Assembly (NCBI RefSeq): GCF_900116425.1
Contig: NZ_FPAS01000003.1
Location: 1 to 64,000 of the forward strand
Direction of reading: 5' to 3'
Length of the DNA: 64,000 nt
Source: Lishizhenia tianjinensis
Lineage (GTDB): Bacteria; Bacteroidota; Bacteroidia; Flavobacteriales_D; Crocinitomicaceae
Shown: positions 16,728-58,242 of the stretch, one piece after another
How the letters are laid out: every line of letters begins with the position of its first letter
Numbering within the stretch: the stretch's first letter is position 1
Notes under the pieces: model-generated
What the model saw: only the letters and a program-made list of their open reading frames with translations
The model's database searches: none
What the model was told of the DNA's origin: nothing
Made by a program: the position numbers and the translations under genes

Positions 16728-19700
16728 TTACTGAAGTACAAACTTAAAATTAGCTGATTCGTCGTCGTTATCTAGCTGTAATATGTAAAGTCCTTTTGCC
16801 AAATCATCTACCTGTAATTGAGTATTACTTTGGTTAATGGTAAATGATTGTACAATTTTTCCGGTAGCCACCTCAATTATATTCCCGTTTAGGTTATCAC
16901 CCTTGAGTTGTTCCAACTTAACATTTAATACTCCTGATGAAACTGGGTTTGGATAAACTGAAATACCATAGGCTTCCAAATTATCCTCAACATTTAATAA
17001 GATGCTCTGCGCTTCAACGGCACCTATATCTCTTGTTCCGTCGTAAACTGCATTACCATGTTGATCGTCAAACATATCTGAAGGTGCACCTGCGTTGTAT
17101 GCAGGACTTCCCACAACTAAACTGTGACTTAGCGTTACTCCTCCGTTAAATGCTAAAGGAGCAATCACTGGATCTACAGGGAGAGAGACCGTTCCTGTGA
17201 TATCACCAGATGCAGAAGCAAAGGTGCTTACTTCAAGAATTCCGATTAAGTTGTACCCATCACTTGCTATAGGTGATGTTGAAGTATATAAGTCTGCACT
17301 TGTACCTAGGTTGAGGGCAACAATAGTATTTTTTAAAGTTGGTAACATAGCGCTGTTATTGGCTATACCTCCCCCTTCGTTATTTGCTGTGTTGTAAACA
17401 ATAGTAGATGCATTTACATCTAACCCCGCATTGGAGTAAATTCCACCTCCTTGATTCATAGAACTATTTCCAGAGATCGTTGATGTCATAACCGTTGCCG
17501 TACCAGCTTTCACGTGAATAGCTCCACCATTACCTAGGGTTCCATTCGACATATTATTCATCAGGGTTGATGCGTTTACCACAAGATCTCCACCATTTAC
17601 AAAGATGGCACCACCACCAAAGGCTTCACCGTCTCCGTTCGCTTCATTCTCCTCGAGTGTTACACTCGTCAATGTCATTGTAGAACCCGTTTGATTCCAC
17701 AACGCACCACCTTCTCTTCCGGCCAAATTACCTTCAAAAGATGAGTTTTCTATATCTATGGTTGCAACTCCCGTAATGTGAATAGCTCCTCCATTTCCTG
17801 GTGCGGGTGTTCCTGCTGTTCCATCTACATCATTTTCTACAAAATCAGAATTTGCAATATCCAACACTCCGTTTACGACTTCAATAGCACCACCTGCTCT
17901 ATTGGCTGCGTTTGCTTCAAAATGTGTATTAGAGATAAGTACATCACCATCTAAACTCAACACACCTCCACCAGAAGCAGAAGCTCCAGTAGCCATGTTA
18001 TTGATGATATCAGCACTTACAATGTTTACTTCTCCCGAAACATTAAAAATTGCACCTCCTCCATCATCAGCTCCAGCACCAAGGGCAACATTGTTCATAA
18101 TTTCTGTATTGTTTACAGCCATCATTCCTGAACCATTCCAAAGTCCTCCTCCTTCTAAACCAGCAGAATTTCCATTTACAGTTCCACCAATAATCGTTGC
18201 ATTTCCAGCTCCTGTGATGTGTAATCCACCACCGTTACCAGGTGCAGATAAAGCAGAATTGTTATCTAGGTTTACATTAGAAAGCATGATGGTGCTTCCT
18301 CCAGAATTATCTTCAATTCCTCCTCCTGCTCTCAAGGCAGAATTCAGAGTAATACTAGAGTTGCTGATACTTAAATCAGCTCCTACATCATTTAAAATTC
18401 CACCACCAGAACCCGCAGCTCCATCGGCTGAATTGTTTGTAATCGTGGTATTTACGATGGTTAAATCACCTCCATTAAAGTTGTAGATTCCACCACCACC
18501 ATTATCGGCAGCAGCACCTGAAGCAACATTTCCTGAGATTGTTGTTCCGTCTATATCCATAGAACCTGATCCGTTCCAAAGTCCACCACCTTCTGAACCC
18601 GCTGTATTTCCATTTACGGTTCCACCGTTTATTTCTATGGTTCCAGGACCAGTCATGTGTAATCCACCTCCATTTCCGGGTGCAGACAAAGCCATGTTGT
18701 TGTTTAAGTTTACGTTGTTAAGTGTTATAAAGGAAGTACCTCCTGTTGCATTACCTTCGATTCCTCCACCTGCTCTTAGGGCAGAATTCGCAGTAATAAA
18801 TGAGTTGTTTATTGTTAGTATAGCGCCTACATCATTCAAAATTCCACCGCCAGAACCCGCTGTTCCATCTGCAGAATTATTCGTAATAACGGCATTCGAA
18901 ATGGTTAAAGTACCATTGTTTAAGTTGTAGATACCTCCACCTCCATTATCGGCCAAATCACCTGAGGCTGTATTGCCTGAAATTGTTGTTCCATCTATGG
19001 TCATGGTACCTACACCATTCCACAATCCTCCACCTTCAGATCCTGCAGTATTATCGTTTACAGTTCCTCCGGTAATGCTTATCGTTCCTGGTCCTGTCAT
19101 GTGCAACCCACCTCCATTTCCTGGAGCAGATAAGGCCATGTTATTGTTTAAATTCACATTCGTCAAAGTGATGTCATTGCTTCCTGCTGTAGCTACACCT
19201 TCAATTCCTCCACCTGCTCTTAGCGCTGAGTTTCCAGTTATAGATGTATTATCAACAGTTAGGGTAGCATTCACATCGTTGAGAATTCCTCCTCCAGAAC
19301 CTGCTGCTCCATCTGCCGTGTTATTTGCAATACTTGCATTCATAATCACAAGCGTTCCACCTGAAAGGTTGTAGATTCCTCCACCACCATTATCGGCAGC
19401 CGCTCCTGAAGCAGTGTTTCCCGAAATACTCGTTCCGTCTATGGTCATAGTACCTGTACCATTCCAAAGTCCACCACCTTCTAATCCAGCTGTGTTCCCA
19501 TTCACTGTTCCTCCAGTAATGTCTATAGTTCCCGGACCCGTCATGTGTAATCCACCACCATTTCCTGGTGCAGATAAGGCCATGTTATTGTTTAGCGTAA
19601 CTCCTGTAAGGGTAATAGAATTTGTTCCAGCTGTAGCTACACCTTCAATTCCTCCCCCTGCTCTTAAGGCTGAGTTACCTGTAATTACAGAGTTACTAAT

Positions 19701-20627
19701 TGACAAGGTAGCATCTACATCATTTAGAATTCCTCCTCCAGAACCTGCAGCTCCATCGGCGTCATTATTGGTTATGATAGCATTTGAAATTGTTAGAGTT
19801 CCACTGTTTAGGTTATAGATACCTCCACCACCGTTGTCCGGAGCCGCACCTGAAGCAGTATTTCCAGTAATGGTAGCTCCATCTATGGTCATTGTACCCG
19901 ATCCATTCCACAAGGCTCCACCTTCTGCGGCAGCTACATTGTTTGAAAAAGTACCACCTGTAATTACAGCAGTTCCAGCGCCTGTAATGTGCAGAGCACC
20001 ACCGTTACCTGGGGCTGGAGAAGCAGGACTCACCCCTGCATTGTTTCCAGAAAGTGTACACGTTGTTAAGGTAACCGTAGTACCTGCAACGGCCTCTATG
20101 GCTCCACCTGCTCGGTTTGCCTGGTTATTTGTAAAAGAAGAGTTTACCGCTGTTAAGGTAGCCCCTGCTCCAACGAGTATAGCTCCACCACTCCCACTTA
20201 TTCCTGAAGCGGTGTTACTTTCAAAGTCTACGTTATTGGCAATTACGTTTGCCCCAACAACTTGAATGGCCCCACCATTTCCGGCAGAACCATTCGTTAA
20301 GGTTAAATTATTCAAGGTAAGGGTACCTGTTGTAACGTCAAAAATTCTTCCTAGGTCATCTCCATCTATAGTTGTTGTTCCGAAGATATTTCCATTAATG
20401 GTTAAACTTTTGTCTATGGTAATTTCACCACTTGCTAATACTATGTTTGAAACTGTAAAGTCGACAGATAAAGTTGCTCCTGGCGCGGCTGCTGCGATTT
20501 GACTCCTTAATGTACCGGGAGAGCCATCATCAGCACCACTGGTTATTATTTGTCCAAATGCCACCACCGAGCCCATGGCCAGTGATACAGAAAGGACCAA
20601 AAAACGAAGCGTAAAAGATGTTTTCAT
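16728..20627 (-). CDS. T9SS-type secreted right-handed beta-helix repeat protein
   Basis: 1299 residues. Signal peptide 1-25 (cleavage near A-F-G-Q). The N-terminus (D-D-G-S-P-G-T-L-R-S-Q-I) is typical of polymorphic-outer-membrane/choice-of-anchor proteins. The body is a run of short parallel beta-helix rungs with G-N-G-G-A-I/G-G-G-I-x-N and I-x-x-N-x-A motifs, arranged in larger units of about 148 residues. The C-terminus holds a P-A-Y-N-A-G linker and a T9SS type A-like sorting domain with Y-P-N-P and K-G-L-Y-I-L-Q-L. No catalytic residues for a polysaccharide lyase could be identified, so adhesion or surface coating is as likely as enzyme activity. It is Gly/Ala/Asn-rich, with long spurious open frames on the other strand. 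Confidence 0.85.
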   Translation of the reverse strand: MKTSFTLRFLVLSVSLAMGSVVAFGQIITSGADDGSPGTLRSQIAAAAPGATLSVDFTVSNIVLASGEITIDKSLTINGNIFGTTTIDGDDLGRIFDVTTGTLTLNNLTLTNGSAGNGGAIQVVGANVIANNVDFESNTASGISGSGGAILVGAGATLTAVNSSFTNNQANRAGGAIEAVAGTTVTLTTCTLSGNNAGVSPASPAPGNGGALHITGAGTAVITGGTFSNNVAAAEGGALWNGSGTMTIDGATITGNTASGAAPDNGGGGIYNLNSGTLTISNAIITNNDADGAAGSGGGILNDVDATLSISNSVITGNSALRAGGGIEGVATAGTNSITLTGVTLNNNMALSAPGNGGGLHMTGPGTIDITGGTVNGNTAGLEGGGLWNGTGTMTIDGTSISGNTASGAAADNGGGGIYNLSGGTLVIMNASIANNTADGAAGSGGGILNDVNATLTVDNTSITGNSALRAGGGIEGVATAGSNDITLTNVNLNNNMALSAPGNGGGLHMTGPGTISITGGTVNDNTAGSEGGGLWNGVGTMTIDGTTISGNTASGDLADNGGGGIYNLNNGTLTISNAVITNNSADGTAGSGGGILNDVGAILTINNSFITANSALRAGGGIEGNATGGTSFITLNNVNLNNNMALSAPGNGGGLHMTGPGTIEINGGTVNGNTAGSEGGGLWNGSGSMDIDGTTISGNVASGAAADNGGGGIYNFNGGDLTIVNTTITNNSADGAAGSGGGILNDVGADLSISNSSITLNSALRAGGGIEDNSGGSTIMLSNVNLDNNSALSAPGNGGGLHITGAGNATIIGGTVNGNSAGLEGGGLWNGSGMMAVNNTEIMNNVALGAGADDGGGAIFNVSGEVNIVSADIINNMATGASASGGGVLSLDGDVLISNTHFEANAANRAGGAIEVVNGVLDIANSDFVENDVDGTAGTPAPGNGGAIHITGVATIDIENSSFEGNLAGREGGALWNQTGSTMTLTSVTLEENEANGDGEAFGGGAIFVNGGDLVVNASTLMNNMSNGTLGNGGAIHVKAGTATVMTSTISGNSSMNQGGGIYSNAGLDVNASTIVYNTANNEGGGIANNSAMLPTLKNTIVALNLGTSADLYTSTSPIASDGYNLIGILEVSTFASASGDITGTVSLPVDPVIAPLAFNGGVTLSHSLVVGSPAYNAGAPSDMFDDQHGNAVYDGTRDIGAVEAQSILLNVEDNLEAYGISVYPNPVSSGVLNVKLEQLKGDNLNGNIIEVATGKIVQSFTINQSNTQLQVDDLAKGLYILQLDNDDESANFKFVLQ
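17773..19984 (-). repeat. In-frame tandem repeat array, ~444-bp units
   Basis: The segment encoding the H-M-T-G-P-G/H-I-T-G-A-G motif recurs at 17773, 18214, 18652, 19096, 19540 and 19984. Spacings are 441, 438, 444, 444 and 444 bp, all multiples of three. The central copies are closely similar at DNA level, including their synonymous positions, which points to recent duplication or conversion. Partial, more divergent rungs continue on both sides. Confidence 0.9.
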
Positions 20628-20864: not shown

Positions 20865-21353
20865 TTATCTCAAACATTTGAAATAATCGAAAGGTTCTTG
20901 ACAATCTAAACACTGATAATGTGCTTTACATGCTGTTGATCCAAACTGACTGACCATTTTGGTATTTTTGGAATCACACTTTGGACAGGGAACTACAACA
21001 GGGTCTGAAAACAACACCGATTTATCTACCTCATCTTGTGGAGGTGCTATACCGTACTCTTTTAGTTTTCTTCTACCGTTTTCTGTTAACCAGTCTGTGG
21101 TCCATGCAGGTGACAATACCGTTTGAACGGTAACCTTCTCTAAGCCTTCATTCTTTAAAGTTTCTCGAATATCTTCTTCGATTACTTGCATGGCCGGACA
21201 GCCAGAGTAGGTAGGTGTGATGGTCACAGAAACTTCCTCTCCCTTCACTTCAACACCTCTTACCACGCCTAAATCGACAATGGTTAAAACAGGAACTTCC
21301 GGATCACTTACGTGTTCCAGAAGTTCCCAAATATATTCTTTCGTAATTGTCAT
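20865..21353 (-). CDS. paaD: Phenylacetyl-CoA epoxidase-associated Fe-S protein PaaD (PaaJ)
   Basis: 162 residues. The N-terminal DUF59/MIP18 domain (1-100) has D-P-E-V-P-V-L-T-I-V-D-L-G-V-V-R-G and T-P-T-Y-S-G-C-P-A-M. The C-terminal zinc-ribbon-like part has C-P-K-C and C-L-D-C-Q-E-P-F-D-Y-F-K-C. PaaD helps mature or assemble the PaaABCE epoxidase and is not a catalytic subunit. It ends the operon, 10 bases after paaC. Confidence 0.93.
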   Translation of the reverse strand: MTITKEYIWELLEHVSDPEVPVLTIVDLGVVRGVEVKGEEVSVTITPTYSGCPAMQVIEEDIRETLKNEGLEKVTVQTVLSPAWTTDWLTENGRRKLKEYGIAPPQDEVDKSVLFSDPVVVPCPKCDSKNTKMVSQFGSTACKAHYQCLDCQEPFDYFKCLR

Positions 21354-21363
21354 AGTGCAAATA

Positions 21364-22122
21364 TTACCACTCCATTCCTGGATAAGCTCTTTGCATGTAT
21401 TGCATTTCTGCTAAGAGATATCCAAGGTGCTCTGAGTGCAATCCTTTTCTTCCTCCATCTAATTGCCATTTTGTTTCTGGCAAAGTTAAAGTTGCTTCTT
21501 CAACGACACGTTTTACCAATCCTTCCCAATCTGCTCTAAGATCTTCTAGGCTTGTTATAATACCCGCTTCAATTAAAGTTTGATTTACTTCATCTTCAAA
21601 GAAAATTTCTTGTGAGAACCTCCATAAATCATTCAAGGATGCTTGAACTCTTTGGTGCGATTCTTCTGTTCCATCTCCCAAACGAATTACCCATTCCGCA
21701 CTGTGCTTCACGTGGTATTTTACTTCTTTCAAAGACTTCTCGGCGATAGCTGCCAATTGCTCATCTGAGCTTTTCGTTAAAGCTGCATACATGAACTGTT
21801 GGTAAGCAGAGAACAAAAATTGACGAACAATGGTTGCTCCGAAATCACCATTAGGTTGTTCACACAACAATAAGTTGGTGTAATCTCTTTCGTATCTCAA
21901 GTAAGCTAAATCATCTGCTGATCTATCTTTACCTTCAACCTTAGCGGCGTATTCTAAAAGTACCGTTGCCTGTCCTACTAAATCCAAAGCGATGTTTGTT
22001 AACGCGATGTCTTCTTCTAATATAGGACCATGACCACACCACTCTGATAATCGTTGAGAAACAATTAATGCATCATCTCCCAAACGAAGTGTATATTTAA
22101 ATAATGCTTCTTCTTTTGTCAT
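21364..22122 (-). CDS. paaC: Phenylacetyl-CoA epoxidase structural subunit PaaC
   Basis: 252 residues of the ferritin-like fold. Segments matching PaaC: L-R-L-G-D-D-A-L-I-V-S-Q-R-L-S-E-W-C-G-H-G-P and L-A-Y-L-R-Y-E-R-D-Y-T-N, then K-Y-H-V-K-H-S-A-E-W-V. PaaC pairs with PaaA as the non-catalytic scaffold of the epoxidase. It sits between paaB and paaD with gaps of about 10-12 bases. Confidence 0.95.
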   Translation of the reverse strand: MTKEEALFKYTLRLGDDALIVSQRLSEWCGHGPILEEDIALTNIALDLVGQATVLLEYAAKVEGKDRSADDLAYLRYERDYTNLLLCEQPNGDFGATIVRQFLFSAYQQFMYAALTKSSDEQLAAIAEKSLKEVKYHVKHSAEWVIRLGDGTEESHQRVQASLNDLWRFSQEIFFEDEVNQTLIEAGIITSLEDLRADWEGLVKRVVEEATLTLPETKWQLDGGRKGLHSEHLGYLLAEMQYMQRAYPGMEW

Positions 22123-22134
22123 GCTAAAAATCGT

Positions 22135-22422
22135 TTACATGTGCGAAATACCATCTGGTACATCGTAAAAAGTTGGGTGACGGTAAACTTTGCTATCCGC
22201 TGGTTCAAATAAGCTATCCGCTTCTGAAGGATCTGAAGCAAAGATGTTTTTAGATTCTACAACCCAAATACTCACACCTTCTGATCTTCTTGTGTAAACG
22301 TCTCTTGCATTTTCTACAGCCATAGTTTCGTCAGCTGCACGTAAACTTCCCACGTGTTTGTGGCTTAACCCTTGTTTACTTCTTATAAAAACCTCGTATA
22401 AAGGCCATTCTTTTTTTGTCAT
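22135..22422 (-). CDS. paaB: Phenylacetyl-CoA epoxidase subunit PaaB
   Basis: 95 residues, the normal size. The family pattern W-P-L-Y-E-V-F-I-R-S-K-Q-G-L-S-H-K-H-V-G-S-L is at the N-terminus and N-A-R-D-V-Y-T-R-R-S-E-G-V-S-I-W-V-V in the middle. PaaB bridges subunits of the epoxidase complex. Gaps of 11-12 bases on both sides place it firmly in the operon. Confidence 0.95.
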   Translation of the reverse strand: MTKKEWPLYEVFIRSKQGLSHKHVGSLRAADETMAVENARDVYTRRSEGVSIWVVESKNIFASDPSEADSLFEPADSKVYRHPTFYDVPDGISHM

Positions 22423-22433
22423 GTAAATTCTTT

Positions 22434-23381
22434 TTAAGATGCTTTACGTTGAGCTTTTTTGGCAGCATACGCATTGGCAGCTTCTCTTACCCAACTTCCG
22501 TTTTCTTTTGCTTTTCTTCTTGCTTCAACACGTTCTTTGTTACAAATTCCGTTACCAGAAACTACTTGCCAGAACTCGTCCCAGTTAATTTCTCCGAAAT
22601 CATAACTACCTTTCTCCTCATTCCACTTTAAATCTGGATCTGGAATCGTAAGTCCAACCAACTCCGCTTGAGGAACCGTTACATCCACAAACATTTGTCT
22701 TAACTCGTCATTAGAATTACGCTTAATTTTCCATTTCATAGATTGCTCAGAGTGCTGCGAATCTGCATCACTTGGTCCGAACATCATTAGAGCTGGCCAC
22801 CAGAATCTATTTAAAGAATCTTGCGCCATTGCTTTTTGCTCTGGAGTTCCTTGTGCCAATTTGGTAACGATTTCGAAACCTTGTCTTTGGTGGAAAGATT
22901 CTTCCTTACATACTCTCACCATTGCTCTGGCGTATGGTCCGTAAGAACATCTACATAAAGGAACTTGGTTCATAATGGCAGCACCATCAACCAACCATCC
23001 AATAGTTCCCATATCTGCCCATGTTAAAGTTGGGTAGTTAAAGATGCTTGAATATTTCGCTTTTCCTGAGTGTAAATCATCTATGGTCTCTTCTCTATCT
23101 GCTCCTAAAGTTTCAGCTGCAGAATAAAGGTAAAGTCCGTGACCTGCTTCATCTTGCACTTTGGCCAACAAAACAGCTTTTCTTCTCAAATTCGGTGCTC
23201 TGGTAATCCAGTTCCCTTCTGGCAACATTCCAACGATTTCCGAGTGTGCGTGTTGAGATATTTGACGAATCAAGGTTTTTCTGTAGGCATCTGGCATCCA
23301 ATCTTTTGGTTCGATTCTGATGTCAGCGTCTATCTTCTCCTGAAATCGTTTCTCTAATTCTTCTATGTTAATTTCTTTCAT
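22434..23381 (-). CDS. paaA: Phenylacetyl-CoA epoxidase catalytic subunit PaaA
   Basis: About 315 residues. The di-iron site motifs are visible: [12 protein letters not shown] and [13 protein letters not shown] (two E-x-x-H pairs). It epoxidises the aromatic ring of phenylacetyl-CoA using O2 and electrons from PaaE. I place the start at the ATG before K-E-I-N-I-E-E; an upstream in-frame TTG at 23405 would add 8 residues (M-R-E-S-K-K-I-S), for which I see no support. First gene of paaABCD, divergent from the two paaE genes. Confidence 0.95.
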
Positions 23382-24041: not shown

Positions 24042-25118
24042 ATGACTCCAAAATTTCATACTTTAAAAATAAGCGAAGTTAGACGTGAGACGGAAGATGC
24101 TGTATCTGTGGCATTTGAAGTACCTAGCGAATTAAAAGAAGACTACAATTACAAGGCTGGTCAGTACCTTACTTTAAGAACAACTATTGATGGAGAAGAT
24201 TTAAGAAGGTCTTACTCTATTTGTACGAGTCCATTAGATGGAGAATTAAGAGTTGCTATTAAGGAAGTTCCTGAAGGGAAATTCTCTGGATTTGCCAACA
24301 AAGTTTTAAAAGCGGGAGACGAGTTACAAGTAATGACGCCTACGGGTCACTTTAAACTAGAGCCGGATGCTGATCACCAAAAATCATATGCGTTGTTTGC
24401 TGCAGGAAGTGGAATTACACCCATTTTAGCTATAGCTAAAACCATTTTAAAAGCAGAACCTAACAGTGATGTTACTTTATTTTACGGTAACAAAGGTTTC
24501 CACAGCATCATTTTTAGAGAAGAATTAGAAGCTTTGAAAAACGTATACATGAACAACTTTAGAATTGTACATGTTTTAAGTAGAGAAAGCTTAGGTAATA
24601 AATTACAAAAAGGAAGAATAGATCAAGACAAGTGTATTAACTTGTACAACGCTTTCTTAAAAGATACAGATTTAGACGAGGTGTTTATCTGTGGACCAGA
24701 GCAAATGATTTTAGGCGTGAAAGATGCCATGAAAGCATTGAATGTTCCTTCTGACAAAGTTCACTACGAATTATTTACAACGCCAGGAATGGCTATGAAT
24801 CAAGCACCGGTGAAGGCTACGGCAAACGAGCCAAATGTATCTTCTATGGTTCACATCATTTTAGATGGAGACCAAATAGACATTGCTTTAGATTCTACAG
24901 GAGATAACATTTTGGATGCTGCACAAAAAGCTGGAGCGGATTTACCTTTCGCATGTAAAGGTGGGGTTTGTTGTACTTGTAAGGCTAAAATCATTGAAGG
25001 TGAAGCAGTAATGGATGTGAATTACGCTTTGGAAAAAGACGAAGTTGAAGCGGGTTACATCTTAACTTGTCAGTCTCACCCAACCAGTGAGAAGTTAGTA
25101 GTATCATTCGACGATTAA
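24042..25118 (+). CDS. paaE: Phenylacetyl-CoA epoxidase reductase PaaE (copy 1)
   Basis: 358 residues in the three-domain PaaE layout: FAD-binding beta barrel (R-R-S-Y-S-I-C-T-S), NAD(P)-binding domain (A-A-G-S-G-I-T-P-I-L) and a C-terminal plant-type [2Fe-2S] ferredoxin domain with C-K-G-G-V-C-C-T-C and the last cysteine in L-T-C-Q-S-H-P. It passes electrons from NADPH to the di-iron centre of PaaA. It is divergent from paaABCD and followed after 16 bases by a second, homologous gene. Confidence 0.93.
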   Translation: MTPKFHTLKISEVRRETEDAVSVAFEVPSELKEDYNYKAGQYLTLRTTIDGEDLRRSYSICTSPLDGELRVAIKEVPEGKFSGFANKVLKAGDELQVMTPTGHFKLEPDADHQKSYALFAAGSGITPILAIAKTILKAEPNSDVTLFYGNKGFHSIIFREELEALKNVYMNNFRIVHVLSRESLGNKLQKGRIDQDKCINLYNAFLKDTDLDEVFICGPEQMILGVKDAMKALNVPSDKVHYELFTTPGMAMNQAPVKATANEPNVSSMVHIILDGDQIDIALDSTGDNILDAAQKAGADLPFACKGGVCCTCKAKIIEGEAVMDVNYALEKDEVEAGYILTCQSHPTSEKLVVSFDD

Positions 25119-25134
25119 TAGACGACAAAAAATT

Positions 25135-26208
25135 ATGGGATTATTCAAAAGTCTTTTCAAAAAAGACATTAAACCAAAGAAAAGAGGTTTTCTGTACGCA
25201 GAAATTATAGACCTTGTTAGAGAAACGAAGGATACTGTTAAGGTGGTTCTAAGTTTAGATGCCAAAGATAAATTTGTAGTTTATCCCGGACAACACATTA
25301 ACATTGCTGTTGAAATTGACGGGAAGGAATACAGAAGATCTTACTCTATTTGTAGTGGAAGAGGCGAAGAATTAGCCATTGGTATTAAGGAAGTGACCTC
25401 GGGTACAGTTTCTAAATACATGAACAATGAGGTTAAGGTGGGAGATCACCTTTGGATCTCTAAGGCAGAAGGAAGTTTTAGGATAGCTCAAGAAAACAAG
25501 AATATTGTTGCCTTTGCTGCCGGAAGTGGTATTACACCAATTTTATCTTTTGCAAAACACATCGCAGGGATAGAAGGAAAAATGGAATTGTTATATGCGA
25601 ATAAAACAGAGGCGGATATTATTTTCAAAAAAGATATAGACGCTTTAAGCAAGCATGTAAAGACACATTACTTCCTTACTCAAGAAGTGAAAGAAGGATA
25701 CTTAAAAGGTAGAATTAATAAAGCGTCGGTAACTGCTTTTATTAAAGAAAACCTAGACGTTTTAAAAGCAGATGGTTTCTACTTCTGTGGTCCGGAAGAA
25801 ATGATAGCTGATGCACTTGAAGCTTTGAAAGTTTTTGGCGTGAGCGAAGACAAATTACATTACGAGTTATTTACGACTCCTACCCTTTTGAAAACACATG
25901 AAACAGAAGTGCATGCTGATTTTAAAGGGGAAAGTAAGGTTACTGTAATCTTAGATGATGAGGAAACTCATTTCACGATGAAATCTGACGGAGACACTTT
26001 GTTGTCTGAATTAGAAAGTGAAGGTGTGGATGCTCCTTATTCTTGTAGAGGTGGTGTATGTAGTACCTGTAAAGCAAAAGTATTGAAAGGTTCTGCCCAC
26101 ATGGATATGAACTACACGTTAACGGACGAAGAAATTGCTGAAGGTTACATTTTAACGTGTCAATCTCACCCGAATTCTGAAGAATTAATAGTTACATACG
26201 ATGACTAA
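25135..26208 (+). CDS. PaaE-like reductase (copy 2)
   Basis: 357 residues, homologous over the full length to the preceding PaaE. It has the same FAD motif (R-R-S-Y-S-I-C-S-G-R), NAD(P) motif (A-A-G-S-G-I-T-P-I-L) and C-terminal cluster C-R-G-G-V-C-S-T-C with L-T-C-Q-S-H-P. All expected cofactor residues are intact, so it is not a decayed copy. It differs by a basic N-terminal extension (F-K-S-L-F-K-K-D-I-K-P-K-K) and an altered linker before the ferredoxin domain. It could be an alternative reductase for PaaA or could serve another oxygenase. Its stop overlaps the next gene by 8 bases. Confidence 0.88.
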   Translation: MGLFKSLFKKDIKPKKRGFLYAEIIDLVRETKDTVKVVLSLDAKDKFVVYPGQHINIAVEIDGKEYRRSYSICSGRGEELAIGIKEVTSGTVSKYMNNEVKVGDHLWISKAEGSFRIAQENKNIVAFAAGSGITPILSFAKHIAGIEGKMELLYANKTEADIIFKKDIDALSKHVKTHYFLTQEVKEGYLKGRINKASVTAFIKENLDVLKADGFYFCGPEEMIADALEALKVFGVSEDKLHYELFTTPTLLKTHETEVHADFKGESKVTVILDDEETHFTMKSDGDTLLSELESEGVDAPYSCRGGVCSTCKAKVLKGSAHMDMNYTLTDEEIAEGYILTCQSHPNSEELIVTYDD

Positions 26209-26881
26209 AAACATAGTAGTATTAGGTTGTAGTAGAGGAATCGGCTATGAAGCGGTTAAGTTCATTTCTGAACATACAGACCATAATGTAATTGCTCTTT
26301 CTAGAAACGTAAGTTCTTTAGAAGGAATGAAGAATGTAGATGCTTTTAGTTTTGACTTAAACAGTCAAAACGTACGCGAAGAATTGTCTGCCATCCTGAA
26401 GAATTACAAAAGTCTGGATGTACTCATCAACAATGCAGGTACTTTAGTAAATAAGCCCTTTTTAGAATTATCTCAAGCAGATATTTCTACGAGCTACCAA
26501 ACCAACATCGTTGGAATCATGGCAGCTACTCAAGCCTTTGTAGAACACGTAGGTGATGGTACTGCGCATATATTAAACATTTCATCTGTTGGTGGAATTC
26601 AAGGAAGTGTGAAGTTTGCTGGACTTTCTGCTTATTCTACTTCAAAAGCTGCATTAGTAAGTTTTACAGAATTATTTGCAGAAGAATATAAAGACACAAA
26701 CATAGACATGAACTGTTTATGTTTAGGCGCTGTGCAAACAGAAATGTTAGCGCAAGCTTTCCCTGGTTATGAAGCTCCGATTAGTGCTGCTAAAATGGCG
26801 AAATACATCGTTGAGTTTTCGTTAACAGGAAACGAATATTACAAGGGGAAAATTCTTCCGGTTTCTATGTCAACACCCTGA
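26201..26881 (+). CDS. Short-chain dehydrogenase/reductase (SDR)
   Basis: 226 residues, classical SDR. Cofactor motif G-C-S-R-G-I-G (variant of T-G-x-x-x-G-x-G) near the N-terminus, N-N-A-G-T in the middle, and catalytic S-S-V...Y-S-T-S-K (Ser, Tyr, Lys present). Reduces or oxidises a carbonyl/alcohol with NAD(P)H. It overlaps the second paaE gene by 8 bases, so it is in the same operon. A step in aromatic or CoA-thioester metabolism is inferred from the context only; the substrate is not known. Confidence 0.85.
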   Translation: MTKNIVVLGCSRGIGYEAVKFISEHTDHNVIALSRNVSSLEGMKNVDAFSFDLNSQNVREELSAILKNYKSLDVLINNAGTLVNKPFLELSQADISTSYQTNIVGIMAATQAFVEHVGDGTAHILNISSVGGIQGSVKFAGLSAYSTSKAALVSFTELFAEEYKDTNIDMNCLCLGAVQTEMLAQAFPGYEAPISAAKMAKYIVEFSLTGNEYYKGKILPVSMSTP

Positions 26882-26902: not shown

Positions 26903-26936
26903 AAAAAGCGATACTCCAACAAGTATCGCTTTTTTT
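26903..26936 (+). terminator. Terminator of the paaE-paaE-SDR operon
   Basis: 13-bp stem (26903-26915 with 26922-26934), 6-nt loop, T-run. The only clear hairpin after the SDR gene. Confidence 0.9.
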
Positions 26937-33283: not shown

Positions 33284-34291
33284 ATGCTAAAAATAGATAT
33301 GCACACGCACATCATTCCTAAACATTTGCCAGATTGGACAAAGAAATTTGGATACGGTGATTTCATTTACCTTGATCACAAGGAAGAAGGAGTTGCGGAT
33401 ATGATGCAAGGTGGGCAATATTTTAGAACCATTAAAGAAAACTGCTGGAACGAAGAAGTTAGAATTCAGGAATACAAAACTTTCGATACACAGGTACAGG
33501 TAGTATGTACGATTCCGGTAATGTTCTCTTACTGGGCCAAGCCAAAGGATTGTTTAGAGTTGTCAGAATTCTTAAACGATCACATAGCGAACTTGGTAGC
33601 GAAGTACCCTAAAAACTACATTGGTTTAGGAACGGTTCCTATGCAGGATACAGAATTGGCTGTTCAAGAATTAGAGCGTATTAAGAAAATTGGATTGGTG
33701 GGGATACAAATTGGATCTAACATCAATGACATGAACTTAAACGAGGAGCAGTTCTTCCCTATTTTCGAAGCGTGTGAACGTTTGGGCTTAGCAGTTATGG
33801 TTCACCCTTGGCAAATGATGGGCTTTGATAGCATGCGCAAGTATTGGTTACCTTGGTTGGTAGGAATGCCAGCTGAAACTTCTAGAGCTGCTTGTTCTTT
33901 GATTTTTGGAGGTGTATTGGAAAGGCTACCTAATTTAAGAGTGTGTTTATCTCACGCAGGTGGTGAGTTCTTATTCACGATGGGTAGAATTGAGCACGGT
34001 TTTAATTGTAGACCAGACTTGGTTGCCATTGACAACAAAAAGAACCCAAGAGAATACATCGGTAAAATGTGGGTAGATTGTATTACACACGATATAGATG
34101 CTTTGAAATACATCTTGAACATGCAAGGCAGCAAACGAGTGAGTTTAGGTTCTGACTACCCTTTCCCATTGGGTGATTTAGAAATTGGAAAATTTATAAC
34201 GGATAGTGATTTACCACAAAATGTTATTGAAGATATTTTCTGCAACTCTACTTTAGAGTGGTTAGATTTGAAAAAGGAGATGTTCTTGTAA
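33284..34291 (+). CDS. 2-amino-3-carboxymuconate-6-semialdehyde decarboxylase (ACMSD)-like amidohydrolase
   Basis: 335 residues, the length of ACMSD. Zinc-site residues line up with the family: His7 and His9 in M-H-T-H, His174 in M-V-H-P-W, His224 in L-S-H-A-G-G and Asp291 in G-S-D-Y-P-F. ACMSD removes CO2 from 2-amino-3-carboxymuconate semialdehyde in the kynurenine (tryptophan/3-hydroxyanthranilate) pathway, diverting flux from quinolinate. The other pathway genes are not in this window, so a related decarboxylase of another substrate is possible. Confidence 0.88.
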   Translation: MLKIDMHTHIIPKHLPDWTKKFGYGDFIYLDHKEEGVADMMQGGQYFRTIKENCWNEEVRIQEYKTFDTQVQVVCTIPVMFSYWAKPKDCLELSEFLNDHIANLVAKYPKNYIGLGTVPMQDTELAVQELERIKKIGLVGIQIGSNINDMNLNEEQFFPIFEACERLGLAVMVHPWQMMGFDSMRKYWLPWLVGMPAETSRAACSLIFGGVLERLPNLRVCLSHAGGEFLFTMGRIEHGFNCRPDLVAIDNKKNPREYIGKMWVDCITHDIDALKYILNMQGSKRVSLGSDYPFPLGDLEIGKFITDSDLPQNVIEDIFCNSTLEWLDLKKEMFL

Positions 34292-52153: not shown

Positions 52154-53449
52154 TTAACCACCGAAGTCGTCGAAAGATACGTTTTCTGGTGGAACTCCCC
52201 AGTCATCACACATCTTAACAACCGCGTTGTTCATCATTGGCGGTCCACAGAAATAGAATTCTATATCCTCTGGCGCTTCGTGATGCGTTAAATAGTTATC
52301 AATTACCGCTTGGTGAACGAAACCAACGAATCCGTCTCCTTCGTCATCCATGTTTTTCTTTTCTTTCCAGTTATCTTCTGGTAATGGCTCAGAAAGAACC
52401 AAGTGGAACTTAAAGTTCGGGAAGTCACGCTCTAAAGAACGGAAGTGCTCTAAGTAGAACAACTCTCTTCTAGAACGACCACCGTACCAGTAAGAAACTT
52501 TACGATCCGTTTTCAAAGTCTTGAACAAGTGGTACAAGTGAGAACGCATTGGCGCCATACCTGCTCCACCACCGATGTATAACATTTCAGCATCAGATTC
52601 CTCGTTGATGAAGAATTCACCGTAAGGTCCTGAAATAACCGCTTTATCACCTGGTTTCAAGTTAAAGATGTAAGAAGAAGCAACTCCTGGGTTAACCTTC
52701 ATCCATCCATTTGCATTTCTATCCCATGGTGGAGTAGCAATACGAACGTTCAACATAATTCTTCTTCCTTCAGCAGGGTAAGAAGCCATAGAGTACGCAC
52801 GAACAACATCTTCGTCATTCTTCATTTGAAGATCCCATAAACCGAACTTATCCCATTCTGTTTGGAATTTCATTGGTTCTCCTGGGTGATCTTCTGGGTG
52901 CGCAGTGATATCCATGTCTTTGAAATTCACTACTGTGTTAGGAATACGAATTTGGATGTAACCACCCGCTTTGTAATCCATATCCTCAGGAATCTCAACT
53001 ATAAACTCTTTAATGAAAGAGGCAACGTTGTAGTTAGAAACAACTTCTGCTTCCCACTCCTTAATTCCTAAGATTTCGTCATGGATTTTAATTTCCATGT
53101 CTTCTTTAACTTTTACCTGACAACCTAAACGGTAGTTGTCAGCAATCTCCTTACGAGAGAAGTGCGGTTCTTCTGTTGGTAAAATGTTTCCACCTCCAGA
53201 AAGTACTTGACATGTACACTGTACACACGTACCCCCACCACCACAAGCTGATGGTAAGAAAATACCTTGACTTCCTAATGTAGAAAGTAGTGACCCACCA
53301 CCATCTACTTCTAATTGCTTATCACCGTTGATAGTAATTTTAATCTTACCAGACGGAGATAACTTTGCCTTAGCAAATAGCAACATACTTGTTAGCAACA
53401 AAACTACTATTAAGAATACTGCTACTGTTATAATAATACCTAAGCCCAT
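52154..53449 (-). CDS. nqrF: Na+-translocating NADH:quinone reductase subunit F
   Basis: 431 residues. N-terminal membrane helix, a [2Fe-2S] ferredoxin domain with C-G-G-G-G-T-C-V-Q-C and the fourth cysteine in R-L-G-C-Q-V-K-V, FAD domain with R-A-Y-S-M-A-S-Y-P and NADH domain with G-G-G-A-G-M-A-P-M-R. It oxidises NADH and is the electron entry of Na+-NQR. Last gene of nqrABCDEF, 3 bases after nqrE. Confidence 0.96.
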   Translation of the reverse strand: MGLGIIITVAVFLIVVLLLTSMLLFAKAKLSPSGKIKITINGDKQLEVDGGGSLLSTLGSQGIFLPSACGGGGTCVQCTCQVLSGGGNILPTEEPHFSRKEIADNYRLGCQVKVKEDMEIKIHDEILGIKEWEAEVVSNYNVASFIKEFIVEIPEDMDYKAGGYIQIRIPNTVVNFKDMDITAHPEDHPGEPMKFQTEWDKFGLWDLQMKNDEDVVRAYSMASYPAEGRRIMLNVRIATPPWDRNANGWMKVNPGVASSYIFNLKPGDKAVISGPYGEFFINEESDAEMLYIGGGAGMAPMRSHLYHLFKTLKTDRKVSYWYGGRSRRELFYLEHFRSLERDFPNFKFHLVLSEPLPEDNWKEKKNMDDEGDGFVGFVHQAVIDNYLTHHEAPEDIEFYFCGPPMMNNAVVKMCDDWGVPPENVSFDDFGG

Positions 53450-53452
53450 ATC

Positions 53453-54160
53453 TTATTTGTTTAATTCGATGTTTTGTGAAGTTTTAGGAGCTTCAACTTG
53501 TTCAGTTTCTGCTTTCTTATCTCCGTTTTTGTATTCAATTCCCATGAAACTCATGAAAGCGATACCCATCAATCCTGTAAGGATGAAAGTAATACCCAAT
53601 CCTCTTAAAGGAGCTGGTACTTGAGAGTATCTAATTTTCTCACGAATTGCAGCAATCGCTACGATAGCTAAGAACCAACCAATACCAGAACCAATACCGA
53701 ATGCTGTAGCATCAGCGATAGTAGAGTACTGACGGTCTGCCATGAACAATGCTCCTCCTAAGATAGAACAGTTTACCGCGATCAATGGTAAGAAGATACC
53801 CAACGCACCGTAAAGTGCAGGAGCAAATTTCTCTACCAACATCTCAACCAACTGTACCATAGAGGCAATTACTGCGATGAACATGATGAAAGAAAGGAAG
53901 CTTAAATCGATAGTGTGTGCACCATCTAAACCGTACTCAGGATTTAACCATCCTAAAGCACCTTCTTTCAATACGTAGTTTTGTAACAAGTAGTTCATTG
54001 GGATAGTGATTCCCAATACGAATATTACCGCTGCTCCTAATCCTACTGCTGTTTTTACAGTTTTAGATACAGCTAAGTAAGAACACATTCCTAAGAAATA
54101 TGCGAAAATCATATTCTCAGAAAAGATCGCTTTTACAAATATGTCTAATGTAGTATCCAT
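53453..54160 (-). CDS. nqrE: Na+-NQR subunit E
   Basis: 235 residues with six membrane helices. The two half-channel cysteines that bind the intramembrane iron centre together with NqrD are present: Cys26 in L-G-M-C-S-Y and Cys131 in A-V-N-C-S-I. A longer charged C-terminus (after ~200) is more than in short relatives. Part of the sodium pump; 35 bases after nqrD. Confidence 0.95.
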   Translation of the reverse strand: MDTTLDIFVKAIFSENMIFAYFLGMCSYLAVSKTVKTAVGLGAAVIFVLGITIPMNYLLQNYVLKEGALGWLNPEYGLDGAHTIDLSFLSFIMFIAVIASMVQLVEMLVEKFAPALYGALGIFLPLIAVNCSILGGALFMADRQYSTIADATAFGIGSGIGWFLAIVAIAAIREKIRYSQVPAPLRGLGITFILTGLMGIAFMSFMGIEYKNGDKKAETEQVEAPKTSQNIELNK

Positions 54161-54195
54161 TATTTAATGTCTTTTATAATTAGTAAATCTCTTTT

Positions 54196-54885
54196 CTAGT
54201 GATCCTCGATTAACGCTTTATTTCTAGAACGCTGAACCCAGATAATGATACCAACAACGATCAAGGCCATTGGAGGTAAGATCATCATGTTGTTGTTCAC
54301 GTATCCCATTGCGTACAAACCAGACTCTTCGCCTGGAAGGTTGTTTCCGAAAATTTCAAATCCTAAGATTTTTCCTGATCCAAACAACTCACGTACTAAG
54401 GCTACCAACAACAAGATCCAAGCATAACCAAATGAGTTACCTAAGGCATCCATGATAGATGGCCAAGGCTTGTTACCCATAGCAAATGCTTCGAAACGTC
54501 CCATGATAATACAGTTGGTAATGATCAAACCTACGAATACAGATAACTTCTCTGAAATATCTGGTACGAAGGCTTGTAACAATTCATCAACAATAATTAC
54601 CAAAGAGGCAACAACTACTAATTGTACAATAATTCTAATTCTTGACGGAATTAAGTTTCTTAACAATGAAATTGATAAGTTACCCATTACCAATACGAAC
54701 AATACAGAAACAGACATCCAAAAGGCCTGCTCAACTTGTACTGTAATCGCCAAAGCTGAACAAATACCTAATACCTGAATTGTAATTGGGTTATTGTCTG
54801 ATAAAGGATCCGTAACTAATTTTCTATTCTTTTTAGAGAATAATGGCTCGCTAGGAGCTTTTGTTTTTTCTACAGTTTCACTCAT
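54196..54885 (-). CDS. nqrD: Na+-NQR subunit D
   Basis: 229 residues, six membrane helices after a hydrophilic N-terminal region of about 30 residues (E-K-T-K-A-P-S-E-P). Cys42 in L-G-I-C-S-A and Cys125 in I-T-N-C-I-I are the expected ligands of the intramembrane iron site shared with NqrE. Eight bases after nqrC. Confidence 0.95.
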   Translation of the reverse strand: MSETVEKTKAPSEPLFSKKNRKLVTDPLSDNNPITIQVLGICSALAITVQVEQAFWMSVSVLFVLVMGNLSISLLRNLIPSRIRIIVQLVVVASLVIIVDELLQAFVPDISEKLSVFVGLIITNCIIMGRFEAFAMGNKPWPSIMDALGNSFGYAWILLLVALVRELFGSGKILGFEIFGNNLPGEESGLYAMGYVNNNMMILPPMALIVVGIIIWVQRSRNKALIEDH

Positions 54886-54893
54886 CGCTTTCC

Positions 54894-55604
54894 TTATTTC
54901 TTGTTATTGAAATATTTTACGTAAACAGCCATAGTACGGTTCATCATTTCCCCTACTCCTACTGAAGTAATTGTACCTCCAGTAATACCATCTACTTTCA
55001 TTTCGTTTACTCCTGATCCATCCTTCACAACTTGAATTGGTTGGAACTCATTGTTTACAGAAATTTTCTCACCAACCCATCTGTCTTCAAAGAAAGATTG
55101 TTTGATTTCCGCTCCCAAACCTGGAGTTTCTCCTTTGTGGTCGAATGCAGCACCTGCAATTGTTTCGTTATCCTCTCCAATCGCGATGTATCCCCAAATT
55201 GGTCCCCAAAGTCCTGCTCCTACAACTGGTAAAATTGTAATCATTTTACCTTCTGCGTTCTTCGCTTCGAAAACTGGGTATTTTCTATCTGCTTTTTCTA
55301 TCGTCTTGTTTCTGTACTGGTTTCTTACATCTACGCTGAATGCTTTTTCACCTTCAATTACATTTCCAGTTGCATCCACTACGAAAGAGTTCAATACTGT
55401 TTCGTCGTAAATTCCATCTACCGTACTTCTTGTAGACTCAATTCCAATGGCACTTAAGATGTCCATTTTCTTTTTCTTCTCCGCGTTTGCTTTTTTGATA
55501 TCCGCCAAACCAAGCGACAGAGATGCCAATATGGTACCTACAACAACAACTAATGCTATTGCAAATCCAAATGTATATCCGTTACTATCTCTATTAATTG
55601 CCAT
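54894..55604 (-). CDS. nqrC: Na+-NQR subunit C
   Basis: 236 residues. One N-terminal membrane helix (F-G-F-A-I-A-L-V-V-V-V-G-T-I-L-A) and a periplasmic FMN-binding domain. The covalent flavin motif is D-G-I-T-G-G-T-I-T-S, with Thr211 as the predicted phosphoester-linked threonine; the usual SGAT is TGGT here. It carries electrons across the membrane. Directly after nqrB (2-base gap). Confidence 0.94.
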   Translation of the reverse strand: MAINRDSNGYTFGFAIALVVVVGTILASLSLGLADIKKANAEKKKKMDILSAIGIESTRSTVDGIYDETVLNSFVVDATGNVIEGEKAFSVDVRNQYRNKTIEKADRKYPVFEAKNAEGKMITILPVVGAGLWGPIWGYIAIGEDNETIAGAAFDHKGETPGLGAEIKQSFFEDRWVGEKISVNNEFQPIQVVKDGSGVNEMKVDGITGGTITSVGVGEMMNRTMAVYVKYFNNKK

Positions 55605-55606
55605 TA

Positions 55607-56854
55607 CTATGCAGTTTTAAGTCTTTTTAAACGACGTTTAACATTTGCTTGAATTACGTAGTGGTCAATAATAGGAGCCATTACGTTCATAAACAAGATT
55701 GCTAACATTACACCTTCTGGGTAAGCTGGGTTCAATGTTCTAATTAACACTGCAATACCACCTGCCAAGAATCCGTACCATAATTTACCAACACTTGTTT
55801 GCGCTGCCGTTACAGGATCAGTTGCCATAAATACGGCACCGAATGCGAATCCACCGATGATTAAGTGGTAGTATGCTGGCATGTCAAAGTAAGCGTTACC
55901 ACCTATCGCGTTCATCAATAAACCGAATAAGAATCCTCCTGCAAAGAAAGAAACGATGATTCTCCAAGAAGCAACACCTGTAGCCAATAAGATCAATGCA
56001 CCGATTAATACAGCTAATGTAGAAGTCTCACCAACTGAACCTGGGATCATCCCCATAAATGCGTCAATTGGATCGTATTGTGCTTGGAATTTTTCTAACA
56101 ATAATGAAGCACTTTCAGTAAGGTTCGTTTTCATTGCCTGTAAGTCAGCCAATGCAGTAGCTCCTGTTGCACCATCTGGCAACATTCCGTTGTTTGCAGC
56201 GATTACGTCAGCTGTTCCACCTTTCCATACTTTGTCTCCTGACATAGCAGTTGGGTAAGCGAAGAACAAGAATGCTCTAGCTGTTAAAGCAACGTTTAAG
56301 ATGTTCATACCTGTACCACCGAAAACTTCTTTTCCGATAATAACAGCAAATGCTGTAGCAACACCAACCATCCATAATGGAACGTCAACTGGCATAATTA
56401 AAGGAATTAACATTCCTGATACTAGGTACCCTTCGTGTAAAGAGTGACCTTTTAAGAATCCGAAAACGAATTCGATGGCCAAACCAACACCATAAGAAAC
56501 AACTAATAATGGAAGTACACGAGACAACCCGTACAATACTTTATCTCCAAAACCAGTCATGTAATCTCTGTATGCTTCAAACTCAGATCCTGGTAAGTAC
56601 GATTGAATTTCGTAGTGCCAGTGACCTGTGTTGTAAATACCAAATAATAAACAAGGAATCAAGGCGATAACCACCATGAACATTGTTCTTTTCAAATCTA
56701 CACCATCACGGATGTGCGCACCTTTTTTAGTAACGTGCTTTGGTGTAAATGCGAAAGTGGTCATCGTTTCATATAAAGGATGAAACTTTTCCCACTTGGC
56801 ACCCTTTTCGAACATTGGGTCCCACTTGTGTAATAATTTTTCTAATGCTTTCAC
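55607..56854 (-). CDS. nqrB: Na+-NQR subunit B
   Basis: 415 residues with many membrane helices. The covalent FMN motif D-G-A-T-G-A-T-A has Thr233 as predicted flavin attachment. NqrB forms the main Na+ path with riboflavin and quinone. The start codon is GTG (M-K-A-L-E-K-L-L): an in-frame TAA lies 18 bases upstream and the next ATG is at residue 14, inside the conserved N-terminus. 26 bases after nqrA. Confidence 0.95.
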   Translation of the reverse strand: MKALEKLLHKWDPMFEKGAKWEKFHPLYETMTTFAFTPKHVTKKGAHIRDGVDLKRTMFMVVIALIPCLLFGIYNTGHWHYEIQSYLPGSEFEAYRDYMTGFGDKVLYGLSRVLPLLVVSYGVGLAIEFVFGFLKGHSLHEGYLVSGMLIPLIMPVDVPLWMVGVATAFAVIIGKEVFGGTGMNILNVALTARAFLFFAYPTAMSGDKVWKGGTADVIAANNGMLPDGATGATALADLQAMKTNLTESASLLLEKFQAQYDPIDAFMGMIPGSVGETSTLAVLIGALILLATGVASWRIIVSFFAGGFLFGLLMNAIGGNAYFDMPAYYHLIIGGFAFGAVFMATDPVTAAQTSVGKLWYGFLAGGIAVLIRTLNPAYPEGVMLAILFMNVMAPIIDHYVIQANVKRRLKRLKTA

Positions 56855-56880
56855 TTTATTATTCTCTTATGAAGTTAGTA

Positions 56881-58242
56881 TTACATACATTCTTTTTGGA
56901 TCAAGTCAAGTCCTTGACGAACTTTCTCTTGAATCTCAACCTTAGATGTACAAACGTATTCACACAATGCAAAATCTTCTGGAACAACTTCGTAAATTCC
57001 TAAATTCTCCATTCCATCGATATCATCTGTAATACAAGCTTTGATCAACTGCATTGGTAAAATATCGAATGGGAATACTCTTTCCATTTCTCCTGTAACT
57101 ACAAACCCTCTTTCTTCACCGTTAAGGTTAGTATCCAAAGTATACTTTTTAGAAGAGTTTAACCAAGTTGGGAATAATTTAGAAGCTGAGAACTTATCGA
57201 ACCCAGGACCTAACCAACCTTTCGTAAGGAAAAACTTATACTGATCACCTTCAGGAAGAATAGTGATTTGATTATCGTAGTAGCTTAAACAACCTTCAGC
57301 ACCTATGCTAGTACCTGTTAAGGCGTTTCCAGAAACAACACGTACGTTGTCACCAGCAACATTGTTCTTCACTAAATCAGCAACATTAGCACCGATAACT
57401 GTTTTGTAGTACTTACGGTTTGTAGCTTCTGAACCTGTGTAAGCCACTAACTTCGTAGCGTCAAACTTACCTGTTAAGAAGTATTTACCAATAATTACAA
57501 CATCCTGTACATTAACAGTAAATACGAATTCTCCTTTATTGATAGGATCAATGTGGTGAATTTGCGTACCTACGTTTCCTGCAGGGTGCTTTCCTTCAAA
57601 ACGATTTACAACAACGTTCTTGGCATTTTCCAATGCTGCGTCTGCCTTTACCTTAGCGTTTAACCCCAAGTAAACTTTACCTGTAGTTAATTTTGCCAAC
57701 GCATCAACCCCCGCTTGGAAAGCTTCGTCTTGTCCGTGTAAAATAAAGTCGTAATCTGGAGCTAAAGGAGCAGAATCAAACCCAGAAATAAAGATAGCCT
57801 TTGGAGCCGCCTCTGGATTTGCAACTACACCTAATGGTCTTTGCGTAATGAAAGGCCACAAACCAGCGCTTAACATAGTTTGCTTAACACTTTCTGCATC
57901 CGCACTCGCTGGAGCAACTGGAGAACCTTGAACGTATTCAGTATTAGCATCAGCATTGATCCTAACCTCCAGAATACGTCTCTTCTCTCCCCTTACGATT
58001 TCAGCGATTTCACCACTAACTGGAGACACATATTTTACAGCATCGTTGTATTTATCAAAAAAGATAACAGATCCTGCCTGTACCTTATCACCTGGTTTTA
58101 CTGCCATCTTTGGCACTAAACCGTGAAAATCTGTGGGTTTAATAGATACGGTTTTTGGCATTGCTAAATCTGCCGTCACCTTATCAGCCTCTCCTACAAG
58201 CCTGATATCTAACCCCTTTCTTAGCTTAACTGTCTTTGACAT
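56881..58242 (-). CDS. nqrA: Na+-NQR subunit A
   Basis: 453 residues, soluble. The N-terminus (K-T-V-K-L-R-K-G-L-D-I-R-L-V-G) with barrel-sandwich/RnfC-like fold, then P-V-S-G-E-I-A-E-I-V-R-G-E-K-R, matches NqrA. It sits on the cytoplasmic face of the sodium pump and shapes the quinone site. It is the promoter-proximal gene of the operon. Confidence 0.96.
   Translation of the reverse strand: MSKTVKLRKGLDIRLVGEADKVTADLAMPKTVSIKPTDFHGLVPKMAVKPGDKVQAGSVIFFDKYNDAVKYVSPVSGEIAEIVRGEKRRILEVRINADANTEYVQGSPVAPASADAESVKQTMLSAGLWPFITQRPLGVVANPEAAPKAIFISGFDSAPLAPDYDFILHGQDEAFQAGVDALAKLTTGKVYLGLNAKVKADAALENAKNVVVNRFEGKHPAGNVGTQIHHIDPINKGEFVFTVNVQDVVIIGKYFLTGKFDATKLVAYTGSEATNRKYYKTVIGANVADLVKNNVAGDNVRVVSGNALTGTSIGAEGCLSYYDNQITILPEGDQYKFFLTKGWLGPGFDKFSASKLFPTWLNSSKKYTLDTNLNGEERGFVVTGEMERVFPFDILPMQLIKACITDDIDGMENLGIYEVVPEDFALCEYVCTSKVEIQEKVRQGLDLIQKECM

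Follow-up and report, generated by a model that had tools for sequence, protein, structure and literature searches.

PaaE is the reductase of the PaaABC epoxidase of phenylacetate degradation, and its gene is given as lying in a cluster in 19 of 23 cases (PMC2653477). The FAD- and NAD-binding domains of PaaE are described as occurring in multiple oxidoreductases in a paper whose main text does not contain the word 'Bacteroidota' (PMC13186573), and the titles and abstract openings among the search results listed mention no tandem of paaE genes in that phylum. Also relevant is Rv3230c, which according to a title cited in PMC5037126 is the NADPH oxidoreductase that serves the acyl-CoA desaturase DesA3. 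The locus described here lies in a stretch of 64,000 nucleotides of Lishizhenia tianjinensis (family Crocinitomicaceae; contig NZ_FPAS01000003.1, positions 1 to 64,000, referred to as the window), in which two PaaE-type reductase genes, here called E1 and E2, are followed by the gene of a short-chain dehydrogenase/reductase (SDR). E2 belongs to a sub-family of its own within a known type of reductase and stands beside E1, which by its sequence is an ordinary PaaE, and the arrangement is real and conserved. The comparisons cover 59 genomes, which carry G codes (that of L. tianjinensis itself being G000), and the individual loci carry L codes.

E1 and E2 as reductases

E1 (positions 24042–25118, forward strand) encodes 358 residues and E2 (25135–26208, forward strand) 357 residues, with a gap of 16 bp between them, and the SDR gene (26201–26881, forward strand; 226 residues) overlaps the end of E2 by 8 bases. 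These coordinates, lengths and spacings agree exactly with those in an earlier note made from the letters of the sequence alone, and the intact FAD, NAD(P) and [2Fe-2S] motifs that it reported in both reductases are indeed present, as the Pfam domains FAD_binding_6, NAD_binding_1 and Fer2 occur in that order in both proteins and each above its cut-off. In E2 the residues R68, S69, Y70 and S71, which we take to be the RxYS flavin motif, and the cluster cysteines C304, C309, C312 and C342 are invariant across 25 E2 proteins. E1 and E2 are only 40 % identical over 356 columns and are thus a real paralogue pair and not a duplicated assembly; a local assembly error as the source of the tandem is ruled out by the same gene order in other assemblies.

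The two proteins differ clearly in their relation to the PaaE model TIGR02160 (NCBIfam; curated cut-off 420.8 bits). E1 scores 457.6 bits and is a member, whereas E2, in spite of its shared domain order and length, scores 282.6 bits, and two other E2 proteins score 317.7 and 325.2 bits; no other protein of the L. tianjinensis genome matches this model at an E-value of 1e-10. The cut-off alone is not decisive, since the reductase at L058 falls below it (407.2 bits) although it is linked to paa genes. In a comparison of 21 genomes all 210 genome pairs, which are not independent of one another, show E1 as the better conserved of the two reductases, with mean identities of 59.0 % for E1 versus 48.2 % for E2.

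A tree of 78 reductases from G000 and its relatives places all 25 E2 rows in a single clade (support 100/99), each encoded directly upstream of an SDR gene. Two further trees, of 92 and 91 rows, were built from rows picked to include both paa-linked and stand-alone reductases of Flavobacteriaceae, the larger taking in 15 of the 25 E2 rows. In these E1 falls within a 35-row clade together with the paa-linked PaaE proteins of six Flavobacteriaceae (99/99 and 98/97), and in both trees E2 lies outside this PaaE clade, on the side of the stand-alone reductases and of some paa-linked ones. As E1 groups with the PaaE proteins of other families and E2 is on the other side, E2 probably did not arise on the spot by copying of E1, and judged from these sequences it is probably an old separate lineage. 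The suspicion in the earlier note that the second copy may be a variant electron donor is supported to the extent that E2 differs in kind from PaaE, lying both under the PaaE cut-off and outside the PaaE clade. The outcome is mixed as to whether E2 groups with the reductases of oxygenases other than PaaABC: it does not join the clade of reductases linked to Rieske oxygenases, but it sits with stand-alone reductases as well as with some paa-linked ones. A tree that used Hcr of E. coli as its outgroup was dropped as evidence, the outgroup branch being 6 units long and E2 falling beside it. The stand-alone reductases of Flavobacteriaceae resemble E2 in having the same architecture, in lying outside the PaaE clade and, in the two proteins that were scored (357.2 and 371.9 bits), in staying below the TIGR02160 cut-off, but they are not followed by an SDR gene.

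A further property of E2 is its N-terminus. After correction of their starts all 25 E2 proteins begin with M-[GAS]-[LFVI]-[FL] and continue with a basic stretch, a motif that in the window reads MGLFKSLFKKDI (25135–25170, forward strand) and that E1 does not have. The motif is found in none of 23 E1 proteins, none of nine reductases of a third type and none of 15 stand-alone Flavobacteriaceae reductases, and the pattern is matched by one of six paa-linked Flavobacteriaceae copies. Since this pattern was drawn from the same 25 E2 rows it was checked on new sequences, with the truncated L096 and two loci that duplicate rows used before set aside, and was present in nine of ten E2 proteins complete at this end (three of the ten being near-identical) and in none of ten E1 proteins; the single new E2 protein that departs from it, that of L121, starts MLKKLFRK. 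The basic N-terminal extension that the earlier note saw in the second copy is thus a real E2-specific feature. It is short and hydrophobic-basic, and may have a functional meaning.

The AlphaFold model of E2 has a mean predicted local distance difference test score (pLDDT) of 85.8 and matches solved oxygenase reductases and related flavoproteins. With this model, Foldseek ranks 2PIA third (22 % identity) and 1KRH_A 29th (21 % identity), and 1KRH likewise heads the matches of E2 by sequence. These reductases of phthalate and benzoate dioxygenases thus share the fold of the E2 model but little of its sequence; 2PIA has the same domain order as E2 but binds FMN, and 1KRH carries its ferredoxin domain at the N-terminus. 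A preference for NADH or NADPH could not be read from the sequences and this line was dropped: at a position that we take to be the site binding the 2′-phosphate, E2 proteins mostly have Q (14 of 25) and E1 proteins mostly R (16 of 23), but PaaE of E. coli itself has Q there, so that the position does not discriminate.

Conservation of the gene row and the role of the SDR

A search with E2 matched 54 of the 59 genomes, G000 included, and gene maps cover all of these except G027, G047, G052 and G058. Of the 36 family genomes, counting that of L. tianjinensis, 20 have an uninterrupted row of reductase, E2 and SDR genes, so that the conservation of the order, which the earlier note had proposed to examine, is confirmed within the family. 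The first reductase is of E1 type in 18 of the 20 rows and of the third type in G003, where it is cut by the start of the contig, and in G024. In 12 of these 20 genomes paaABCD adjoin the row; in the other eight the row was not found next to them, G003 being undecidable because its contig starts within the first reductase. Between E1 and E2 there are 1–87 bases across 20 loci, the fragment in G029 included, and the start of the SDR gene overlaps the stop of E2 in all 24 E2 loci measured, by exactly 8 bases in 11 of them, the starts of the open reading frames (ORFs) having been set mechanically.

Five more genomes of the family have a complete E2–SDR pair without a complete reductase upstream. 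In G012 no E1 was found anywhere in the genome, in G033 and G035 E1 is elsewhere, in G002 the contig begins at this point, and in G029 an E1-like fragment corresponding to the first ~145 residues (L049:1739–2176) directly precedes an intact E2–SDR pair, a complete PaaE of another type being encoded beside paaA (L072). The E2–SDR pair is thus kept also where the upstream reductase is missing, lies elsewhere or is incomplete (G012, G033, G035 and G029). As for the other genomes of the family, in G028 the contig breaks inside E2 and the two pieces are consistent with an E1–E2–SDR row, in G027 only fragments were matched, in seven genomes the SDR gene is preceded by one third-type reductase and there is no E2, G013 has E1 alone, and G031 (84 % complete) gave no match.

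A scan of named records yielded 13 further loci of E2 type, of which two repeat contigs already counted. Eleven of the 13 show E1–E2–SDR, whereas the loci L096 and L121 respectively start and stop within E2. The labels of the records include Crocinitomicaceae, Lishizhenia tianjinensis and also only Flavobacteriales, and for L096, L142 and L145 Chitinophaga pinensis and Chryseobacterium gleum, which would be wrong names of metagenome-assembled genomes; the family of the genomes compared is thus presumably Crocinitomicaceae. In G045, which belongs to another family, a PaaE gene is directly followed by a small ORF (L082:9069–9341) whose match to E2 is confined to the 90 C-terminal residues, the ferredoxin domain, and by the SDR gene 1.6 kb beyond; the small ORF could be either an E2 remnant or a separate ferredoxin.

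The SDR of the window is a classical one (PF00106, adh_short, 133 bits), and its translation contains GCSRGIG, presumably the glycine-rich nucleotide motif, as well as NISS and YSTSK, which we take to hold the Ser, Tyr and Lys residues of classical SDRs. Homologues are present in 49 of the 59 genomes (E-value 1e-40). The earlier note had suggested that this enzyme might act on a ring-derived intermediate. A homologue that is 46–54 % identical occurs once per genome in 20 of 20 Flavobacteriaceae, however, and 14 of these do not encode PaaA, so that a role in phenylacetate ring metabolism is not supported; an SDR without PaaA is likewise seen in G041 and in G046 (78 % complete). By its occurrence the SDR gene is a core gene and not a phenylacetate gene, and its product would be a core reductase and not a ring-cleavage enzyme. 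Outside the family of L. tianjinensis its gene mostly does not adjoin a reductase, G051 and G057 being exceptions. The five Flavobacteriaceae SDR loci L197–L201 all have an SprT-like ORF nearby, and four of them have a nucleotidyl-transferase-like ORF, as judged by eye and with hidden Markov model (HMM) support in L201 only, and inspection by eye of the recurrent neighbours revealed no shared metabolic partner or oxygenase.

Candidate partners of E2

The partners of PaaE-type reductases are evidently not restricted to PaaABC. The 20 Flavobacteriaceae genomes considered here were chosen from 40 loci with stand-alone reductases, the presence of such a copy in all of them being therefore by choice; PaaA is encoded in six, each with an extra reductase beside paaA, and was not found in the other 14, whose completeness is not stated. 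In the six paa clusters examined a single reductase adjoins paaA, in keeping with the earlier note, which gives one paaE as the normal number in phenylacetate clusters. Some PaaE-like Flavobacteriaceae reductases encoded beside Rieske oxygenases, as recognized by HMM in L192 and by eye in L193, L195 and L196, form a clade of their own, and PaaE-type reductases thus do have clients other than PaaABC in Bacteroidota. The Rieske protein of L192 resembles the glycine betaine monooxygenase family, at a score far under the cut-off of that family, and at L194:5995–7023 a very diverged PaaE-like reductase stands among ORFs that by eye are cytochrome-like, globin-like and Crp-like. Among the neighbours of the stand-alone reductases at the 40 loci no recurrent oxygenase was recognized by eye.

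Four non-Paa families were considered as clients of E2. Rieske proteins (PF00848) occur in 9 and MOSC proteins (PF03473, 6-hydroxyaminopurine reductase-like) in 21 of the 59 genomes, neither with a match in G000 at an E-value of 1e-8, and both were rejected. So were the membrane hydroxylases of PF04116, which have two members in G000 and a match in 32 of 39 genomes but none in the E2 genomes G008, G012, G014, G015, G016, G021 and G023. Fatty acid desaturases (PF00487) are encoded in 35 of the 36 family genomes, and they are therefore the only near-constant candidate of the four; the case for a desaturase would accordingly be made by elimination among few candidates. As PaaA is itself present in all 36 genomes, co-occurrence inside the family cannot separate a Paa client from a desaturase client. 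Of the seven family genomes in which one reductase gene is paired with the SDR gene, four have a MOSC-domain gene downstream of the latter (loci L056, L057, L064 and L069), the protein of L069 being closest to 6-hydroxyaminopurine reductase at a score under the cut-off, and a MOSC protein is possibly a further client of the reductases of this single type. Two PaaA matches each were found in G008, G023 and G045, where a second epoxidase could be another client.

The reading that we prefer, and advance tentatively, is that E2 is a broad-use electron donor coupled to the core SDR, backing up PaaABC and kept mainly for an oxygen-activating enzyme outside phenylacetate degradation, most likely a desaturase. 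E1 would be the dedicated PaaE, passing electrons from NADPH through FAD and the [2Fe-2S] cluster to the diiron centre of PaaA. E2 would represent an old lineage of the same architecture, fixed in the family, with a hydrophobic-basic N-terminus of its own and translationally coupled to the SDR; its main client would most likely be the membrane fatty acid desaturase encoded in nearly all of the family's genomes. Rv3230c could then be regarded as a working analogue, in that it is an NADPH reductase for a membrane desaturase, although the E2 gene is not linked to a desaturase gene. That E2 may also back up PaaABC is suggested by G012 (rated 100 % complete), in which paaABCD are divergent from E2–SDR with no E1 between, PaaZ is encoded, and E2 is the sole reductase match in the genome at an E-value of 1e-30; if the phenylacetate pathway of G012 works, E2 suffices for PaaABC. 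It is because of this genome, and of seven reductases outside the PaaE clade that adjoin paaA (L058, L089, L083, L084, L119, L153 and L164), that we regard E2 as a broad-use donor and not as one unable to serve PaaABC. We also consider, as an improbable elaboration, that the N-terminus serves to anchor E2 at the membrane or on a partner, and that E2 and the SDR would form a family-specific redox unit driving lipid desaturation from a transcript shared with the phenylacetate reductase.

Several results weigh against this interpretation. The universal presence of PaaA has been mentioned, and the seven paaA-adjacent reductases outside the PaaE clade probably act as PaaE. The desaturase gene of G000 is on another contig than E2, and no desaturase gene adjoins E2, the nearest being ~7 kb from an E2 row (G011); in G043 a desaturase gene 3 kb away adjoins a paa-linked PaaE and not E2. 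A membrane helix at the N-terminus of E2 was looked for and rejected, residues 1–12 having a pLDDT below 50 and no helix in the AlphaFold model, and the hydrophobic moment of this segment is no higher than that of shuffled sequences, 7–30 % of which reach it (six peptides). That E2 groups with the stand-alone reductases of Flavobacteriaceae has weak support (80/79 in the tree of 92 rows and 55/40 in that of 91), and a tree forcing E1 and E2 together, which has a log-likelihood lower by 56, is not clearly rejected by the approximately unbiased (AU) test (p-AU 0.059).

The last of these results bears on two other explanations. In one, which is possible but which we consider doubtful, E2 is a second PaaE isoenzyme serving PaaABC under other conditions of temperature, cofactor or expression level, the pair being a phenylacetate-specific redundancy. 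Its position 16 bp from E1 on the same strand, the 12 rows beside paaABCD, the constancy of PaaA in the family and the example of G012, which has paaABCD with E2 only, would all be expected from such a pairing; less easily accommodated are the eight rows not found beside paaABCD (G003 being undecidable at its contig start), the persistence of E2–SDR without E1, the lower conservation of E2 and its place outside the PaaE clade, and the single PaaE of the six Flavobacteriaceae clusters. The other holds that E1 and E2 arose by tandem duplication inside the family and that E2 looks old through fast evolution. We judge this quite unlikely, as E1 lies firmly within a clade with the PaaE proteins of other families and the likelihood falls when E1 and E2 are held together, even though the tandem position, the long E2 branches in the tree of 78 reductases and the AU values (p-AU 0.062 when the single-SDR group is added to the forced clade) speak in its favour.

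It has also to be asked whether E2 and the SDR form a two-step redox unit outside phenylacetate degradation, E2 reducing a small oxygenase or metalloprotein and the SDR reducing a carbonyl product. The overlap of the two genes at every E2 locus measured, so often of exactly 8 bases, the survival of the pair after loss of E1, and the single reductase–SDR pairs of seven more family genomes, four of them then with a MOSC gene, are consistent with such a unit. We nevertheless think it unlikely, since co-translation is no proof of one pathway, outside the family the SDR gene is mostly apart from a reductase (with the two exceptions given above), and no shared oxygenase was seen by eye among the recurrent neighbours.

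The wider locus and the meaning of the tandem

The E1–E2–SDR tandem is divergent from the phenylacetate genes paaA-B-C-D (23381–20865), which are all on the reverse strand and whose products all score above the NCBIfam cut-offs. These are paaA for the oxygenase alpha subunit (22434–23381, with its ATG at 23381; TIGR02156, 545.7 bits), paaB (22135–22422; TIGR02157, 146.8 bits), paaC (21364–22122; TIGR02158, 318.4 bits) and paaD (20865–21353; TIGR02159, 203.6 bits); PaaZ is encoded elsewhere in the genome. Downstream of the SDR gene there is a terminator-like hairpin with a 13-pair stem and a run of Ts (26903–26934, forward strand). With three such sites in the window versus 2.2 expected in shuffled sequences it is not by itself significant, and it is likely to be the end of the transcript. 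No match to what we take to be the Bacteroidota-type promoter pattern was found near the operon, the window having three versus 4.45 expected, and a sigma-70 scan of the window gave 8 sites versus 10.8 expected. E1, E2 and the SDR gene would be carried on one shared transcript.

Adjoining paaD on the reverse strand is a gene (16728–20627) for a right-handed beta-helix protein of 1299 residues with visible repeat blocks and a type IX secretion tail. An amidohydrolase (PF04909) is encoded at 33284–34291 on the forward strand, and in our view resembles aminocarboxymuconate semialdehyde decarboxylase, an enzyme of tryptophan degradation. Genes of a Na+-translocating NADH:quinone oxidoreductase (NQR) are at 52154–58242 on the reverse strand, with nqrA at 56881–58242, an NQR2/RnfD-type subunit at 55607–56854 and nqrF at 52154–53449, the NqrF protein being likewise a FAD/NAD/[2Fe-2S] reductase.

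A PaaE-like sequence is easily taken for a phenylacetate enzyme, and in these Bacteroidota a second sub-family of such reductases is fixed beside PaaE. That 14 of the 20 Flavobacteriaceae genomes with a stand-alone relative have no PaaA shows that an equation of PaaE-like with phenylacetate enzyme can mislead. G012, as a natural genome with E2 only, makes the question of back-up directly testable, and the client of E2, once found, would show which core oxygenase in these bacteria depends on this reductase.

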